Below are positions 6,625 through 56,270 of a stretch of 64,000 nt of DNA, piece after piece. Numbering within the stretch: the stretch's first letter is position 1; every line of letters begins with the position of its first letter. The notes beneath the pieces are model-generated. The model had not been told where the DNA came from, ran no database searches, and was given only the letters and a program-made list of their open reading frames with translations. Source of the stretch: an uncultured Flavobacteriaceae bacterium (GTDB lineage: Bacteria; Bacteroidota; Bacteroidia; Flavobacteriales; Flavobacteriaceae); contig CANLWN010000005.1 of NCBI GenBank assembly GCA_947494825.1, positions 248,001-312,000 on the forward strand. The letters are read 5' to 3'. The position numbers and the translations under genes are program-made.

Positions 6625-6933
6625 TATTGCTAGTTGATGGTCTGTGGGTTTCTGGTTTAAGAACCTACCATTTTTTATTGCTAATTGTTCATTGTTTACT
6701 GCTAACCGTCAATGGTCCACGTTTAAAGGTTCGAGATTCTTCGCTTCGCTGCGCTCATCTCTGAATGACAATGCACATTGATTTGTCATTCCGAGCCTGC
6801 GAGGAATCTCTGGTACCATTACCTACTGCTTACTGTCTACTGCCTACTGCCTACTGTCTACTGTTATAAGTTTCAGGTTCAAGGTTGGGCATTATTTATT
6901 GATCATTGATTATTGCTAATTGTTCATTGATGC
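6625..6933. repeat. Intergenic repeat block between pdxH and sixA (heptad arrays plus REP-like palindrome)
   Basis: 309 bp without a credible gene. Heptad arrays flank a central REP-like element at 6733-6810. The clearest stretch is TACTG recurring at 6824, 6831, 6838, 6845, 6852 and 6859, exactly every 7 nt with the other two bases drifting. The block lies directly upstream of the sixA start, so the promoter of the polyphosphate operon must lie in it or upstream in pdxH. I found no clear TAnnTTTG box. Confidence 0.8.
6733..6810. repeat. REP-like palindrome, family A, copy 1
   Basis: Arms GAGATTCTTCGC...CTGAATGACA and TGTCATTCCGAG...GAGGAATCTC are imperfect inverted repeats around a spacer of about 15 bp. 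Copy 2 at 8653-8730 is nearly identical, including the preceding GTTTAAAGGTTC. It could fold into a long hairpin in RNA from either strand. Confidence 0.85.
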
Positions 6934-7581
6934 CTACGGTGCCAAACGTTCTATTTTCCAGTTGTAATCCGCTTGTAGGTTATACCGTATTCTGTCATGC
7001 AGCCTATTGGGTCTGCCCTGCCAGAACTCTAGGGAAACTGGTTTAACGATATATCCGCCCCAAAAGTTTGGTCTTTCTATTTCCTTGCCCTCGTATTCCT
7101 TTTCCAGTTTTCGCAGGCCTTCTTCCAATTCCTCGCGAGATTGGATTACGGCACTTTGGTCGGACACGATAGCGCCCAATTTACTGCCTTCCGGCCTCGA
7201 TTCAAAATACCCATCGGACAAATTAGCCGCTATTTTTTCGACCTTCCCTTTTATGATAATTTGCCGTTCCATATTGGGCCAAAAAAAAGAAAGGCATACA
7301 TTGGGGTTCTTGGCTATGGCCTTCCCCTTTTCACTTTCGTAGTTGGTGTAAAAAATAAAGCCCTCAAAGGTGTATTTTTTTAGCAGGACTACCCTGTTTT
7401 TTGGAAAACCGTCCAAACCCATGGTGGAAAGCGTCATCGCATTGGGTTCATCCACGCCCTCAGAAGCTTCCACCTCATAGAACCATCGCTGAAAAAGCTC
7501 CATGGGATTATCGGAAATGGAATCCTCACTAAGCGCGCTTTTGGTATACGTTTTCCTATAGTTTCCTAGGTCCTTTTGCAT
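6934..7581 (-). CDS. pdxH: Pyridoxamine 5'-phosphate oxidase
   Basis: 215-residue FMN enzyme converting pyridoxamine or pyridoxine 5'-phosphate to pyridoxal 5'-phosphate, the last step of B6 synthesis and salvage. Family landmarks: MTLSTMGLDGFPKNRVVLLK (FMN and substrate contacts), GFIFYTNYESEKGKA, FFWPNMERQIIIKGKVEK, and the C-terminal EFWQGRPNRLHDRIRY segment whose Arg-x-His contacts PLP. Length is standard. Repeats flank it on the 3' side; rnz lies 60 bp upstream on the same strand, so the two may be co-transcribed. Confidence 0.95.
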   Translation of the reverse strand: MQKDLGNYRKTYTKSALSEDSISDNPMELFQRWFYEVEASEGVDEPNAMTLSTMGLDGFPKNRVVLLKKYTFEGFIFYTNYESEKGKAIAKNPNVCLSFFWPNMERQIIIKGKVEKIAANLSDGYFESRPEGSKLGAIVSDQSAVIQSREELEEGLRKLEKEYEGKEIERPNFWGGYIVKPVSLEFWQGRPNRLHDRIRYNLQADYNWKIERLAP

Positions 7582-7641
7582 TTTACATCAATTCAAAAAC
7601 AAGATAAACAAAGTTGGGCAAAAGATGGCAAATTGCGCACA

Positions 7642-8547
7642 TCAAAACTCGAACACTTTTCCATCATCCGACAGTTCCACCCTATCAAAAATTTCTTGGG
7701 CTTCCTCCTTAAAAAGGTCAATGGATTTGTAGCGTGTGGAATAATGGCCCAGAATCAATTGCCCCACCCCCGCCGCCTTGGCTATGGAAGCAGCCTCTTT
7801 GGCGGTGGAATGCTTTGTTTTTGTGGACAAATGGGCCTCCGAATCCAAAAAGGTAGATTCGTGATAGAGGACATCCACATTTTTAATCATTGGCACAATT
7901 TCGGGGGCATGGCCCGTGTCGCTGCAATAGGCATAGCTCTTTGGTTTTGGCGGGTCCAAGGTGAGCTCCGCGTTCGGTATCAGGGTACCGTCGTCCAATG
8001 TTATGTCGTCCCCATTTTTGATGCCATTATAGTTGTACTTGCCTATTCCATATCGTTGTACCTCGGCCAGGTTTAACTTACGAGGGCCCACTTTTTCGCG
8101 GAACAGGAAGCCATTGGTATATACCCTGTGCTTCAAAGGAATGGTAGTAACGGTAAGTTTGTCGTCCTCCAAAATGCGTTCTGGTTTTTTTGAGGTCATT
8201 TCGTGGAAGATCAAAGGATAATCGGTCCATGAGTCCCCTAACTTCAAAAGCAGGGTTATGGCCTCTTTGATGCCCTTTGGGCCATAGATATGCAATTCCT
8301 TCTTTCTTCCCAATAACCTAAAAGTGGAAATAAGACCGGGCAGGCCAAAAAAATGGTCGCCGTGCAAATGGGAAATAAATATGTGGTCTATCTTGGAAAA
8401 TTTTAGCTTGCTCTTGCGCAGTTGTACCTGTGTGCCCTCCCCGCAGTCTATCAAAAAAAGCTGTCCCTTCAGTTCAAGGATCTGTGCGGTAGGGTTCGTT
8501 AGGGTACGTGGTGTAGCGGCATAACAACCCAGGATGTGTAATTTCAT
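7642..8547 (-). CDS. rnz: Ribonuclease Z
   Basis: 301-residue metallo-beta-lactamase-fold endonuclease that trims the 3' end of tRNA precursors. Zinc motif HLHGDH at residues 60-65, then the GPRKLNL segment that belongs to the flexible-arm region, SDTGHA, HEST and LGHYSTRY supplying the remaining ligands. Short-form (about 300 residue) RNase Z. A heptad array GTTnnnG begins 6 bp upstream of its start codon, so its leader and possibly its promoter consist of repeat DNA. The bona fide rnz is this gene, not the small STAS-like gene at 9611. Confidence 0.94.
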   Translation of the reverse strand: MKLHILGCYAATPRTLTNPTAQILELKGQLFLIDCGEGTQVQLRKSKLKFSKIDHIFISHLHGDHFFGLPGLISTFRLLGRKKELHIYGPKGIKEAITLLLKLGDSWTDYPLIFHEMTSKKPERILEDDKLTVTTIPLKHRVYTNGFLFREKVGPRKLNLAEVQRYGIGKYNYNGIKNGDDITLDDGTLIPNAELTLDPPKPKSYAYCSDTGHAPEIVPMIKNVDVLYHESTFLDSEAHLSTKTKHSTAKEAASIAKAAGVGQLILGHYSTRYKSIDLFKEEAQEIFDRVELSDDGKVFEF

Positions 8548-8652
8548 ATGTTGGTTCCTGGTTTAGGGTTAGAGGTTCAAGGTTTCTGGTTTAAGGTTTA
8601 AGAACGGGTCATTTTTTATTGCTTATTGTTCACTGCCCATGTTTAAAGGTTC

Positions 8653-8730
8653 GAGATTCTTCGCTTCGCTGCGCTACGCTCTGAATGACAATACGCATTG
8701 ATTTGTCGTTCCGAGCCTGCGAGGAATCTA
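8653..8730. repeat. REP-like palindrome, family A, copy 2
   Basis: Same arm order as copy 1: GAGATTCTTCGC...CTGAATGACA, spacer, TTGTCGTTCCGAG...GAGGAATCTA. Differences from copy 1 are a few substitutions only. Confidence 0.85.
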
Positions 8731-8854
8731 TGGCACCATTACCCAGCCCTGCTGCCTGTTGTTCACTGCCAACTGCCTACTGTTATAGGTTTCTGGTTTC
8801 AGATTCAAGCTTGGGCATTGTTTATTGTTCATTGCTTATTGTTCATTGTTAACT

Positions 8855-8926
8855 GCCGGATAAAATGCATCACGCCATGCGCTAAGCGCCGAGCGCATTA
8901 CCAATTCATCATTCATAACTCAACAC
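8855..8926 (-). repeat. GCGC-rich composite repeat, family C, copy 1
   Basis: Begins CCGGATAAAATGCATC, passes through GCGCTAAGCGCCGAGCGCA, which has hairpin potential, and ends in AATTCATCATTCATAACTCAA. Related copies: 9021-9093 and, in opposite orientation, 36587-36672 and the units within 55815-56204. Confidence 0.8.
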
Positions 8927-9020
8927 TGAGAACCGCCTACTGCTTACTGTTTCAGGTTCAAGCTTGGGCATTGTTTATTGTTAATTGATTATTGCTAATT
9001 GCTTATTGTTCATTGCTTAC

Positions 9021-9093
9021 TGCCGGATAAAATACATCGCGCCATACGCCAAGCGCCGAGCGCATTGCCAATTCATCGTTCATCACTCAACAC
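9021..9093 (-). repeat. GCGC-rich composite repeat, family C, copy 2
   Basis: Shares the whole module with copy 1. Its extension through about 9120 (CACATAAAACCCAACA followed by heptads) is the reverse complement, with few changes, of 36560-36672. Confidence 0.8.
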
Positions 9094-9123
9094 ATAAAAC
9101 CCAACATTGCCAACTGCCCACTG

Positions 9124-9606
9124 CTAACTGTTTAAGGTTTGTGGCGTGTAGTCTCTGAGGTCCTCTGGGGTAAACCTGCCCTTAAAAGTAAACGCATATG
9201 GGGTCTCGCCGTGCGTATTGAGGTAACTTAGCCTAAGTTTTGCCTCTGCTACCGTGGGTATGGTTCCTTTCTTAATATACCAGAATGCCATGTGCATTTC
9301 CTGCATAGCACTAAACCACTCCTTTCTTCTTGTAAAAATGGCCACGTGGTCGGATTTGTACGTAAAATTGAACAAATCTTCCATAGAGGTCCAGACCGAC
9401 ATGTTGACGATGATAAAATCATCTTCGAAGGCTTGGATAGCGGTGGCATTGTTATTTTCATCCTGCAAGCGCCATACAAAGCCCTCACTTTGTTCGGCCA
9501 AGGCATTGATCCGGTCCAGGTTATTGACAAAATCGGCCATTACCGGACTGTCCATGGGTGCAAGCGCCCTTGCAATATTAATTTGAGCCAATTGATATTC
9601 CTCCAT
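9124..9606 (-). CDS. DUF3291 domain-containing protein
   Basis: 160-residue soluble protein recognised as DUF3291 by the pattern QINIARALAPMDSPVMADFV, GFVWRLQD, VNMSVWTSMEDLFNFTYKS and HMAFWYI. The fold resembles dimeric alpha-beta-barrel monooxygenases; activity is unknown. It starts 4 bp after the STAS-like gene and so is probably the last gene of the pyrR operon. Its final codons (roughly the last eight residues) are encoded by heptad-repeat DNA, which suggests the original 3' end was replaced or extended when the repeat block formed. Confidence 0.85.
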   Translation of the reverse strand: MEEYQLAQINIARALAPMDSPVMADFVNNLDRINALAEQSEGFVWRLQDENNNATAIQAFEDDFIIVNMSVWTSMEDLFNFTYKSDHVAIFTRRKEWFSAMQEMHMAFWYIKKGTIPTVAEAKLRLSYLNTHGETPYAFTFKGRFTPEDLRDYTPQTLNS

Positions 9607-13698: not shown

Positions 13699-14079
13699 AT
13701 GAGTGTTAAAGCGAAGTACCAAGGCGTTTTGAGCCTTGGCGAACAATTAGGGATAAAAGATGGGAATGTCACCGAGGAAGGCGGTGTTCTGAAGATAAAA
13801 GGCGTGGCCAATACCCCTTACGAGAAGGACCTTATATGGGACAAAATTAAGGAGCTCGGGGGCGAAAACCCTTCGGATATCAAGGCCAACATTGGCGTAT
13901 CGGATGATTCGGTGTATCACAGGCATGTGGTGAAAAGCGGGGAGTCCTTGAGTAAAATTGCGAAGCACTACTATGGCGATATGATGAAATACAAGGAGAT
14001 TTTTGCCGCCAACACCAATATATTGAGCAATCCGGATGTAATCCATCCCGATCAGGTCTTGGTGATTCCCAATGCTTGA
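13699..14079 (+). CDS. BON-LysM protein, Kbp/YgaU-like
   Basis: 126-residue protein without a signal peptide. An N-terminal BON-like domain (about 1-65, with GGVLKIKGVANTPYEKDLIWDKI) is followed by one LysM domain (about 73-125, HVVKSGESLSKIAKHYYGD to HPDQVLVIPNA). This architecture is that of E. coli Kbp (YgaU), a cytoplasmic potassium-binding protein; LysM in that context does not bind murein. Whether the flavobacterial homologue senses potassium is not known. Its 3' end runs into the bidirectional terminator at 14094. Confidence 0.88.
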   Translation: MSVKAKYQGVLSLGEQLGIKDGNVTEEGGVLKIKGVANTPYEKDLIWDKIKELGGENPSDIKANIGVSDDSVYHRHVVKSGESLSKIAKHYYGDMMKYKEIFAANTNILSNPDVIHPDQVLVIPNA

Positions 14080-14093
14080 TAAGCAATACCTCT

Positions 14094-14219
14094 AAAGGGG
14101 CTGTTCAAATATCGAATTCATTGTCATTCCGAGGTACGAGGAATCTTAGCTTTCCTTTAGGTGAAAGATTCTTCGCTTCGCTCTGAATGACACAAATGAT
14201 GGAATTGAACAGCCCCTTT
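14094..14219. terminator. Bidirectional terminator with an REP-like palindrome in its loop
   Basis: Perfect 15-bp arms AAAGGGGCTGTTCAA (14094-14108) and TTGAACAGCCCCTTT (14205-14219) flank a 96-bp interior. T runs follow on the + strand; on the - strand the right arm also follows cmk's stop. It separates the convergent LysM and cmk genes. The interior is a family A palindrome (14122-14192). Confidence 0.85.
14122..14192. repeat. REP-like palindrome, family A, copy 3 (inverted arm order)
   Basis: TGTCATTCCGAGG...GAGGAATCTT, a 15-bp centre with CTTTC/GAAAG, then AAGATTCTTCGCTTCGCTCTGAATGACA. The half-units face the other way round from copies 1, 2 and 5: TGTCATTC is outermost and GAATCTT innermost. 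Confidence 0.85.
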
Positions 14220-14220
14220 T

Positions 14221-14913
14221 TTATTGCCTTTCGATAACCCGGAGAGCGTAACCGTGAATGCGCTCAAATTGTTCCTTTAGGCCCATATCGCTATTATCAA
14301 ATTCAATGGCATCCTCAGCTTTCTTCAGTGGGGAAAATTCACGGTGGGAATCTATGTAGTCCCTATCCTGTACGTTTTTGAGGACATCGGCATAACTTAG
14401 TTTTTCTCCTTTGTCCAATAGTTCCTTATAACGTCTGGTAGCTCTGGCCTCTGGAGAGGCGGTCATAAATATTTTTAGTTCCGCCTCGGGAAAGACTACG
14501 GTCCCAATATCACGACCATCCATTACAATACCTTTCTCCTTCCCCATCCCCTTCTGCATATCCACCAGTTTTGTCCTTACTTCCTTGATCGTTGCTACCT
14601 TGCTCACCTGTCTGGAAACGTCAAGGGTCCGAATCTCCCTTTCAACGTTTTCATCATTGAGGTACATCTCGGCAAAGCCCAGTTCAGCGTTGTAGACAAA
14701 ATTCAGCTCGATCCCCGGCAGGGACTTCACCAAGGCATCCAAATGTTCCGTGTGCCCCCCTACATAGCCTTTCCGCATGGCATGGAGGGTCACAGCCCTG
14801 TACATAGCGCCTGTATCGACATAGATATATCCCAAGGCCCGTGCCAACTCTTTGGCAATGGTGCTCTTCCCTGTGGAAGAGTAGCCATCAATTGCTATGG
14901 TGATTTTTTGCAT
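14221..14913 (-). CDS. cmk: (d)CMP kinase
   Basis: 230-residue nucleoside monophosphate kinase phosphorylating CMP and dCMP. P-loop GYSSTGKST at residues 10-18; DTGAMYRAVTLHA (substrate contact), MDGRDIGTVVFPEAELKIF (the RDxGT element) and ARATRRYKEL lid region follow. The frame extends two codons further to a TTG at 14919, but the ATG at 14913 (MQKITIAIDG) is chosen because a -7 box covers 14917-14924. Stop codon TAA abuts the terminator arm. Confidence 0.95.
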   Translation of the reverse strand: MQKITIAIDGYSSTGKSTIAKELARALGYIYVDTGAMYRAVTLHAMRKGYVGGHTEHLDALVKSLPGIELNFVYNAELGFAEMYLNDENVEREIRTLDVSRQVSKVATIKEVRTKLVDMQKGMGKEKGIVMDGRDIGTVVFPEAELKIFMTASPEARATRRYKELLDKGEKLSYADVLKNVQDRDYIDSHREFSPLKKAEDAIEFDNSDMGLKEQFERIHGYALRVIERQ

Positions 14914-14916
14914 GCC

Positions 14917-14924
14917 CAAAAATA
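14917..14924 (-). promoter_or_regulatory. -7 promoter element directly in front of cmk
   Basis: TATTTTTG on the - strand, ending 3 bp before the cmk ATG. If used, transcription would begin at or within a few bases of the start codon, giving a leaderless or near-leaderless mRNA. Confidence 0.4.
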
Positions 14925-31163: not shown

Positions 31164-31192
31164 TTGTCATTCCGAGCCTGCGAGGAATCTCT
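31164..31192. repeat. REP-like family A half-unit, copy 4
   Basis: TTGTCATTCCGAGCCTGCGAGGAATCTCT without its partner arm. Its final GAATCTCTGG merges into the first unit of the 22-bp array, so the array may have grown from this end. Confidence 0.8.
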
Positions 31193-31362
31193 GGTAGATG
31201 CAAAGCACATCTCTAGCGGATGTAAAGCACATCTCTGGCTGATTCAAAACATATCTCTGGCAGATGTAAAACACATCTCTGGCAGATTCAAAACGCATCT
31301 CTAGCGGATTTAAAATAAATCTTTGGCTGATTTTGAAAAAATCTCTGGCTGATTTGGGATTA
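31187..31362. repeat. 22-bp tandem array, eight units
   Basis: ATCT recurs at 31187, 31209, 31231, 31253, 31275, 31297, 31319 and 31341, exactly every 22 bp. The typical unit begins ATCTCTGGC, has GAT at unit positions 11-13 and ends AAAACAC. The first five units are the most alike; units 6-8 drift, with AAAATAA or GAAAAA ends. Confidence 0.92.
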
Positions 31363-33448: not shown

Positions 33449-33952
33449 ATGATCAAAAAAGTAATTTTTGGCCTCTGTATTATCCTTGCGGGTTGCAAGG
33501 GTGTTTCCCAAGACAAGGAAGTGGCGGCTAAAACGGACGAACAACAGGAAGAGACCTATGCAGTGACCAAGACCGATGCGGAGTGGCACAAAGAACTCAC
33601 CGATATGCAATATTATATCCTGCGAAGAAAGGGAACGGAAAACGCCTTTACCAGTCACCTGCTCAACAATAAGGAAAAGGGCACCTATGCTTGTGCAGGC
33701 TGTGGAACGGCCTTGTTCAAGAGCGATCATAAATTTGATTCGGGTACCGGTTGGCCCAGTTTTGACAGGGAAATAGAAGGTTCGGTTTCCTTTAGCACGG
33801 ATTACAACATCGGTTATGCCCGTACGGAAGAACACTGTTCCACCTGCGGTGGTCACCTAGGGCACGTGTTCAATGACGGTCCGGCGGCCACTACCGGAAA
33901 AAGACATTGTATCAATGGGGCAGCCCTAAACTTTATACCTGAAAACGAATGA
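33449..33952 (+). CDS. msrB: Peptide-methionine (R)-S-oxide reductase MsrB, lipoprotein form
   Basis: 167 residues. Lipobox Cys16 (CIILAGC) places it on the outside of the inner membrane or in the outer membrane. Structural zinc Cys82/85 and Cys130/133, catalytic Cys154 in KRHCIN. In the segment DSGTGWPSF the position that holds the resolving Cys in two-Cys MsrB is Thr100. It therefore looks like a one-Cys enzyme that needs another reductant. Its stop overlaps the start of the second msrB by 4 bp (ATGA). Confidence 0.93.
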   Translation: MIKKVIFGLCIILAGCKGVSQDKEVAAKTDEQQEETYAVTKTDAEWHKELTDMQYYILRRKGTENAFTSHLLNNKEKGTYACAGCGTALFKSDHKFDSGTGWPSFDREIEGSVSFSTDYNIGYARTEEHCSTCGGHLGHVFNDGPAATTGKRHCINGAALNFIPENE

Positions 33953-34356
33953 GCAAAACGTATCCCATAAATAAATCCGAGGACGACTGGAAAACGCAAC
34001 TCTCCGAGGATGAGTATCGTGTGCTTCGCGAAAAAGGCACCGAATATCCCCACACAGGAAAATTCAACCTGCATTTTGAAAATGGGGATTACCACTGTAA
34101 GGCCTGCAATGCAAAGCTTTTTGAAAGCGAACATAAATTTGAGAGCGGTTGTGGTTGGCCCTCTTTTGATGAAGCCGTAGAGGGCGCCATAGAGTACATA
34201 CGGGACACGTCGCACGGTATGATCCGTACAGAAACCGTGTGTGCCAATTGCGGGAGCCACCTAGGGCATGTCTTCAATGACGGACCCAGGGATACTACCG
34301 GACAGCGGTATTGTATCAATTCGGTCAGCATCGACTTTGACGCTTCGAAAGACTGA
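33949..34356 (+). CDS. msrB: Peptide-methionine (R)-S-oxide reductase MsrB, cytosolic form
   Basis: 135 residues with no signal. Zinc Cys50/53 and Cys98/101, catalytic Cys122 in QRYCIN, and Cys68 in ESGCGWPSF, the usual resolving Cys that allows recycling by thioredoxin. It reduces methionine-R-sulfoxide in proteins. Together with the preceding gene it gives one operon covering cytosol and envelope, with different catalytic set-ups. Confidence 0.95.
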   Translation: MSKTYPINKSEDDWKTQLSEDEYRVLREKGTEYPHTGKFNLHFENGDYHCKACNAKLFESEHKFESGCGWPSFDEAVEGAIEYIRDTSHGMIRTETVCANCGSHLGHVFNDGPRDTTGQRYCINSVSIDFDASKD

Positions 34357-36424: not shown

Positions 36425-36885
36425 ACTCTACCTGAATCCTAGTGGGGCAGTTGACGGTTGACAGTTGACAATAAGCAATTAACAATAAACAATGCCCAAC
36501 TTTGAACCAGAAACAGTTGGCAGTTAGCAGTAAGCAGTGAACAATTAGCAATAAGCAATGGGCAGTAATCAGTTGGCAGTGTTGGGTTTTATGTGTCGAG
36601 CGATGAATTATGAATGATGAATTGGCAATGTGCTCGGCCCTTGGTGTAAGGCGCGATGCACTTTATCCGGCAGTAGGCAGTGAACAATGAACAATAAACA
36701 TTAAACAATGCCCAACCTTGAACCAGAAACAGTGGGCAGTTGGCAGTGTTGGGTTTTATGTGTCGAGCGATGAATTATGAATGATGAATTAGGTGAGATG
36801 AGTTCTCAATGGCAATTTTGAACTTGAGCTTGAACCTTGAACTTTAAACCTTGAACCTTGAACTTTAAACCTTGAACCTAAAAAC
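36425..36885. repeat. Intergenic repeat block between lpdA and DUF3817 gene
   Basis: 461 bp filled by repeats. Ten consecutive heptads of CAGTnnn/CAATnnn at 36514-36583, family C module at 36587-36672, a shorter second C-like segment (36745-36790), and eight heptads of CCTTGAA/CTTTAAA at 36828-36883 ending 2 bp before the DUF3817 start codon. No gene is visible. Confidence 0.9.
36587..36672 (+). repeat. GCGC-rich composite repeat, family C, copy 3
   Basis: TTTTATGTGTCGAGCGATGAATTATG... AATGTGCTCGG ... GGCGCGATGCACTTTATCCGG. Reverse complement of 9021-9093 with few changes, and flanking heptads also match. Confidence 0.8.
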
Positions 36886-55749: not shown

Positions 55750-56270
55750 GGTTTAAAGTTGGCAGTAGGCAGTTACAGTTGGCAGTTCTTTGTGTTAGGT
55801 TTTAAATGTTGAGTGTTGAATTATGAATTGCACTGCGTTCGGCGTGTGCATTATGGTGGGCAGTTCATGGTGTTTGGTGTTAAATACTGAGTGTTGAATT
55901 ATGAATTATGAATTGCGGTGCGCTCGGCGCTTAGCGTATGACGCGATGCATTTTATCTGGAAGTAAGCGGTTCTCAGTGTTGAATTATGGATTGCAATGC
56001 GTTCGGCGTTTGGCGCGTTGCATTATAGTGGACAGTTCCTGGCGTTAGGTGTTAAATACTGAGTGTTGAATTATGAATTATGAATTGCGGTGCGCTCGGC
56101 GCTTAGCGTATGGCGCGATGCATTTTATCGGGCAGTAGGCGGTTCTCAGTGTTGAATTATGAATTGCAATGCGTTCGGCGTTTGGCGCGTTGCATTATAG
56201 TGGACAGTTCATGGTGTTTGAGGTTCAAGGTTTCAGGTTTATAGTATCATTAACAAAAAAATAGGCAGTA
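55750..56270. repeat. Intergenic repeat block with a 172-bp tandem duplication
   Basis: 521 bp of repeats. Heptad strings (GGCAGTAGGCAGTTACAGTTGGCAG) lead in. CAGTTC recurs at 55861, 56033 and 56205, exactly 172 bp apart, delimiting two nearly identical units made of family C modules in alternating sub-types (TGCGCTCGGCGC and TGCGTTCGGCG). GTTnnnG heptads end the block close to the next start codon. No gene is visible. Confidence 0.9.
55861..56204 (+). repeat. 172-bp direct tandem repeat, two units
   Basis: Unit 1: 55861-56032; unit 2: 56033-56204. Differences are scattered single bases (for example TATGACGCG versus TATGGCGCG; ATGGTGTTTGG versus CTGGCGTTAGG). A partial unit precedes unit 1 and the start of a third follows unit 2. 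Confidence 0.9.

Follow-up and report, generated by a model that had tools for sequence, protein, structure and literature searches.

A REP-like dimer enclosed in terminator-like arms between lysM and cmk of a Flavobacteriaceae genome: a composite hairpin that probably spreads by replacing resident terminators

The hairpin between the convergent genes lysM and cmk at positions 14094–14219 of the window (the whole stretch of 64,000 nt analysed here, from contig CANLWN010000005.1 of an uncultured Flavobacteriaceae bacterium, assembly GCA_947494825.1) is probably one copy of a composite terminator which carries a REP-like dimer in its loop and which spreads by replacing resident terminators. In related genomes, the outer arms and the dimer co-occur as a unit, the pairing of the arms is kept and the resident hairpin is substituted. 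By analogy with these copies, we infer that the window copy would have arisen by the same replacement.

The analysis confirmed that the nested palindrome is real. The left outer arm (AAAGGGGCTGTTCAA, 14094–14108, plus strand) and the right outer arm (TTGAACAGCCCCTTT, 14205–14219, plus strand) are exact reverse complements of each other (15/15 positions) and enclose a loop of 96 nt. The left arm belongs to the class GRCTGTYYNAA, which recurs with REP-like cores in relatives. Between the arms, a left spacer (14109–14121, plus strand) and a right spacer (14193–14204, plus strand) frame a 71-nt REP-like dimer without assigned strand (14122–14192, TGTCATTCCGAG...CTCTGAATGACA), which was recognised as family A, with its TGTC ends outside, from matches in its own genome. 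Upstream, the stop codon of lysM (13699–14079, plus strand, a LysM-domain protein with Pfam LysM) lies 14 nt before the left arm. On the other side, the stop codon of the convergent cmk (14221–14919, minus strand, cytidylate kinase with Pfam Cytidylate_kin) follows the right arm after 1 nt and is overlapped by a T run serving lysM (14217–14222, plus strand). An earlier note on this DNA had described a perfect 15-bp stem between convergent genes, with a REP-like element nested in the loop of a terminator-like hairpin, and both observations hold. The stem was also called GC-rich, which is generous for 7 of 15 bases.

RNA folding of positions 14080–14235 gave a minimum free energy of -62.9 kcal/mol (z -8.9), and 0 of 200 shuffled sequences folded as well. 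The bare hairpin reached z -8.9 on the plus strand and -6.7 on the minus strand, and in the folds of both strands the outer arms are fully paired around a long inner hairpin made by the dimer. On the plus strand, the 15-bp stem followed by TTTTTT corresponds to a predicted intrinsic terminator. A bidirectional terminator has a U tract on both strands; on the minus strand only TTT (14094–14096) was found, followed by AGAGG. Of the T runs claimed for both sides, that of the plus strand is thus strong and that of the minus strand weak, and the hairpin, judged from its sequence, looks like a terminator between the convergent lysM and cmk. It was not called in a standard terminator scan, because the loop limit of the scan is 8 nt. 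A census covered 452 kb of this genome, made up of the window and 400 kb of contig 5 with their 12-kb overlap counted once. No second inverted repeat was encountered that combined a T run with a loop of 40–220 and perfect arms no shorter than 11, and the mirror-symmetry control gave 0 matches. A search of eight loci against Rfam returned seven weak matches and none above the gathering score.

With at most one mismatch allowed, the window genome has the half-site TGTCATTCCGAG at 78 places; the reversed pattern gave 5. Counting the pairs by hand from this list gave 23 dimers with the TGTC ends inside (offset 25–26 nt) and 3 with the TGTC ends outside (offset 59 nt), including the window copy. 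The loop therefore does hold a family A palindrome, as had been noted before, in the minority arrangement. The two other dimers with outside tags, at C2:492598 and C2:493113, are 81% and 86% identical to that of the window, and no outer arms were seen around them by eye. Among the family A loci read, arms stand beside the window copy only, plus on one side at C3:13690.

Both outer ends of 14122–14192 carry the TGTC tag of the REP superfamily. By eye, the half-sites of the window pair only through ATTCC/GGAAT and ATTC/GAAT, and thus fall short of the stem of 8–9 bp starting with AT, with a loop of 4–5, that defines the superfamily. Because of this stem length, the inner element is named only REP-like. 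The Kordia-like copies carry the CGTC tag, and one Kordia copy does have a stem of the superfamily type (ATTCTGAG-CTTGA-CTCAGAAT). A search for the Y1 (RAYT) transposase, PF01797, gave 0 matches in the window genome (G000), which is 99.97% complete, and a RAYT was rejected as mover of the window repeat on this ground.

Several other repeats were observed in the window. Imperfect short repeats (TTGAACC, CAGTGGGCAGTT, GATGAATTATGAAT) form mosaic arrays at 6647–9150, 36450–36880 and 55770–56230; some of these repeats are inverted copies of each other across tens of kb, and REP dimers with inside tags are embedded in the arrays near 6738 and 8658. At 31187–31353, a 22-nt tandem repeat (ATCTCTGGCAGATGTAAAGCAC) adjoins a REP half-site, and similar tandem repeats adjoin half-sites at C3:13.4–13.7 kb (L170) and C1:837 kb (L162). 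Two 97-nt stretches within 33820–34320, 73% identical and 404 nt apart, may belong to two MsrB paralogues, judging from their motif.

Arms of the one class GRCTGTYYNAA recur in the window genome, and their cargo can differ. A perfect match to AGGGGCTGTTCAAA was found once, in the window arm itself; with two mismatches allowed, the 70 matches were not much above the 43 of the control. Thirty of these 70 places were inspected as loci, and two of them (L212, L185) lie between genes and flank REP-like palindromes that belong to a different TGTC family. L212 (C2:275795, about 275.6–275.9 kb, L212 positions 1354–1514) is a second composite, with the arms AGCGGCTGTTTGAAAAG/CTTTTAAACAGCCGCT, a cargo from a different TGTC REP family and a location between convergent frames. 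L185 (C2:180655) is a decayed version of the same arrangement. At L170 (C3:13690), GAGGCTGTCCAAAAAA precedes a TGTCATTCCGAG half-site and the right arm is missing. In all, the window genome yielded two composites that are intact and two that are decayed or partial.

Across the Flavobacteriaceae, the strict pattern of GRCTGTYYNAA, 2–32 nt and GTCATTCYGAG gave nine matches in 6 of 397 genomes, which belong to 5 of 237 genera, among them that of the window; the reversed-pattern control gave none. Both arms flank the REP core in eight of the nine, the ninth being C3:13690. The arm class GRCTGTYYNAAAAG plus a CGTC/TGTC-type REP dimer recurs as a unit, of which 31 copies were fetched in two genomes. 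With at most one mismatch, the arm AGAGGCTGTCTNAAAA occurs 25 times in G145 (reversed control 0) and 27 times in G375 (control 1). The counts are 4 in G201, 2 in G268, 4 in G168, 0 in G018 and 1 in G026, with reversed controls of 1, 1, 0, 1 and 0, respectively. Nineteen loci were read by eye in each of G145 and G375, covering 38 of 48. Both arms around a GTCA...TGAC core were present in 17 of the 19 loci of G145, some with decayed right arms. In G375, 14 of 19 had both arms and the core, one was decayed and four were short hairpins consisting of arms only; an arm-to-arm length of 133 nt is common in this genome. Many units sit just after stop codons. Convergent frames flank 12 of the 19 units in G145 and 6 of the 19 in G375, by a crude frame calling in which an antisense frame may pass as a gene. 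PF01797 is absent from G375, G201, G268 and G026 and present in G145 and G168; it is lacking in four of the six carriers searched (G000, G375, G201, G268).

The association was also seen in a REP-centred sample chosen without regard to the arms, namely all 20 exact half-sites of G375 and, of the 27 in G421, the first 20. These arms were found at 13 of the 20 loci in G375 and at 6 of the 20 in G421, i.e., 19 of 40 in total. At the threshold of the script, 18 of 40 loci were armless, among them L413 and L415, which keep decayed arms. The script assigned the remaining three to another arm: L445 is in fact L286, a standard unit which the script misread, L425 a 12-bp inverted repeat without T run and L432 an inner palindrome. 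At the same threshold, 0 of the 40 loci showed a REP core enclosed by a T-run terminator whose stem is clearly of another type. In the earlier note, the element was thought to have inserted into the loop of a local terminator, a reading said to be at risk if the arms were part of the repeat family elsewhere. In relatives they are: the arms travel with the REP core in the eight pattern matches above, from a set of six genomes, and at the 19 REP-centred loci, which speaks against this claim.

Short terminators with these arms and without REP dimer were observed at L271, L276, L280 and L284 in G375 and at L231 in G201. They are either precursors of the composite or products of internal deletion.

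The pairing of the arms was analysed on all 53 units, with each arm located by its consensus. Of 901 arm positions, 781 are paired, whereas permuting the partners 2000 times gave 719 ± 6 (maximum 744); this comparison ignores the kinship of the copies, and a few right arms with 4–5 mismatches may be misplaced in it. Where the left arm departs from the consensus (76 cases), the right arm offers a Watson-Crick or G-U partner 48 times and none 28 times, and the covariation signal is clearest at arm positions 5, 6, 10 and 12. Since pairing exceeds the shuffled expectation, the stem is being kept.

Orthologous sites in a Kordia-like genus allowed the comparison of filled and empty states. Kordia sp. 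TARA_039 (L115) has the same architecture as the window at the same lysM-cmk site, and its sequence is that of G424 (3159/3159 nt identical). In G201, a close relative of G424 (flanks 90% and 95% identical), the site is occupied by a simple terminator, AAAAGCTTCCAAATTGGAAGCTTTT. Its simple AGCTTCC stem is common to G201, G420, G427, G428 and G375, and the composite including the arms is found in G424 and G421; G422, G423, G425 and G426 were omitted because their flanks are more than 1 kb apart. In the cmk tree, which is based on this single gene and includes one partial sequence (G423), G424 groups with G201 as its sister (support 0.995), and G421 likewise with G420 (0.936). As G424 and G421 stand apart in this tree, parsimony makes the simple state ancestral and the composite gained twice. 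In G424 and G201 alike, the stem starts 21 nt behind the lysM stop codon; the distance from the stem to the cmk stop codon is 18 nt in G424 and 16 nt in G201. It had been proposed to look in relatives for an empty site with the same arms, possibly with a target duplication. Here, the arms of the empty site differ from those of the composite, which means that the hairpin was exchanged as a whole, and alignment of composite and simple sites by eye revealed neither a target duplication nor a remnant of the old stem. The lysM-cmk gaps of other genera contain many short terminators with unrelated stems and are too distant to polarise the event in the window; among the gaps read by eye, a REP dimer inside terminator arms was present only in the window and L115. 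G026, which shares AAAGGGG at the start of the arm, was considered as an empty site and not counted.

Similar substitutions were seen at other sites, where the relatives were taken from among the matches listed. At L285, G375 has the composite, and the same simple ACTCC stem (ACTCCTCAA-type) occurs in G420, G421, G427 and G428 and another simple stem in G425, i.e., the shared stem is present in four of the five relatives read, with the matching G423 and G426 omitted from the comparison. At L283, G375 again has the composite, and five of the seven relatives read (G421, G422, G425, G426, G427) have ACCTC-type stems, G201 and G423 having other ones. For this site only the left flank aligns, and the correspondence is claimed at the level of the same gap, since G421 and G422 have the simple terminator at a greater distance from the stop codon. 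A different REP-like unit (TGTCAYATCGAGCGCAGTCGAGAT) was observed just before the simple terminator at L283 in G422 (L324) and G421 (L345). The composite of L274 is present in G375 and G201, with GCTC-type stems in G420, G421, G422, G424 and G428 and other stems in G423, G425 and G426. At L217, G201 has the composite and G424 a simple AGCGAAC stem, a two-species comparison which is not polarised. The composite of L272 is common to G375, G424 and G201 among the matches listed. At L288, G427 has AGAAGCTGTCTAGAAAA...TTTTCAGACAGCTTCT without dimer and G375 has AGAGGCTGTCTAGAAAG plus the dimer, the other relatives read carrying unrelated stems; nearly identical arms without dimer would be expected whether a dimer had entered the loop in G375 or had been lost from it in G427. 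Left out were L275, L277, L282 and L287 (without usable relative), L278 (repeated right flank) and L289, where the matches were short and partial and one simple GGCTGTC-stem terminator was seen in G428. Simple terminators also change their stem at some sites, hence the turnover of hairpins is not peculiar to composites. Hairpin exchange may be general, with the composite as only one of its travellers.

In the explanation preferred here, the outer arms GRCTGTYYNAAAAG and the T tract would close an intrinsic terminator between convergent genes, with the REP dimer filling its loop. The dimer would fold first and bring the arms, which lie far apart, into contact, allowing the long hairpin to form quickly enough for termination. 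Termination would mainly serve lysM, the gene on the side of the good U tract. Within a genome, the unit would spread by exchange of the whole hairpin, most simply through template switching or ectopic repair via the flanking A tract and T tract, and such repair may start at a stalled or cut hairpin. These tracts are proposed because they are the only homology seen between unit and target and because the Y1 transposase is missing from four of the six carrier genomes searched. The broader proposition, that mobile terminators swap for resident ones with A and T tracts as the only homology and leave working gene ends and no scar, is put forward tentatively and may well not hold.

The nested anatomy by itself would favour the reading that a simple terminator already stood between lysM and cmk and that a REP-like dimer transposed into its loop, leaving the arms intact. 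Arms and cargo are indeed separable, as the similar arms of L212 hold a different REP family, and some terminators of relatives have the arms and no dimer (4 of 19 loci in G375; G427 at L288). We nevertheless consider this reading unlikely: the empty sites at lysM-cmk, L285 and L283 carry unrelated arms, the arms are common to several genera, and REP dimers were found in the loops of other terminator types at 0 of 40 loci at the threshold of the script. Both the separability and the uniform arms would be accounted for if a dimer entered the loop of a terminator and gene conversion among REP cores, which are alike within one genome, then overwrote the old stem with the standard arms. The intermediate expected from such a two-step course, a dimer within a non-standard T-run stem, was encountered at none of the 40 REP-centred loci, which makes it a distinctly improbable course.

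Conserved inverted ends and the common length of 133 nt in G375 could also be read as the marks of a MITE-like element, with the arms as terminal inverted repeats moved by a DDE transposase and the resident terminator lost later. Against this stand the flanks, which are complementary A and T tracts, with no target duplication seen at the aligned sites, the location of many units just after stop codons and the missing old hairpin even between species with about 90–95% identity in the flanks; such an origin appears very improbable. Exchange of the whole hairpin by a REP-carrying composite is retained as the probable explanation. If it is true, terminators, usually taken as fixed local features, would be exchangeable as cassettes, and REPs could spread without RAYT by terminator exchange instead of transposition. 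The idea can be tested on the orthologous filled and empty sites.

Parts of the arrangement have precedents. A bidirectional intrinsic terminator likewise has a stem between convergent stop codons and a U tract; its loop comprises a few nucleotides, whereas that of the window is structured, 96 nt long and accompanied by one weak U tract. REP/REPIN-RAYT elements, in the available portions of PMC3116915 and PMC2817692, are also short dispersed hairpin pairs; the Y1 transposase of such systems (PF01797) is lacking from the window genome. SPRITE, according to the available text of PMC3049150, is a dispersed pneumococcal repeat resembling a Rho-independent terminator at the 3' ends of genes, in a genome whose repeats have inserted into one another. 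It differs from the window hairpin in that an 18-bp duplex with a U-rich tract is described and no REP dimer in the loop; words beginning with "replac" do not occur in the main text.

The closest likeness is to the CGTC/TGTC REPs, which are described in the sections available from Di Nocera et al. (2013; PMC3733652) as mostly dimers with the tags outside, occurring in five phyla including Bacteroidetes. They have no dedicated transposase and lie mostly between unidirectional and convergent genes; in the two genomes diagrammed, most REPs between convergent genes are located at most 20 bp from the 3' ends of both. The words "terminator" and "Flavobacter" are absent from the main text, and nowhere in the sections mentioned is a resident hairpin said to be replaced. 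The literature searched, mostly without subscription papers, contained no account of REP units taking the place of terminators. REP dimers within palindromes, in contrast, are already published for other bacteria: according to the same sections, longer palindromes of A. variabilis, T. roseum and H. neapolitanus enclose REP dimers or elements, and free arms were not found in A. variabilis and H. neapolitanus. The window copy has the TGTC/CGTC tag and the pairing of units in opposite orientation in common with these dimers, and differs from them in stems that are shorter than 8–9 bp and mismatched. Those sections do not settle by what means CGTC-type REPs move in the absence of a transposase of their own; if REPs travel inside replacing terminators, their location at gene ends and the absence of target duplications would follow at once.
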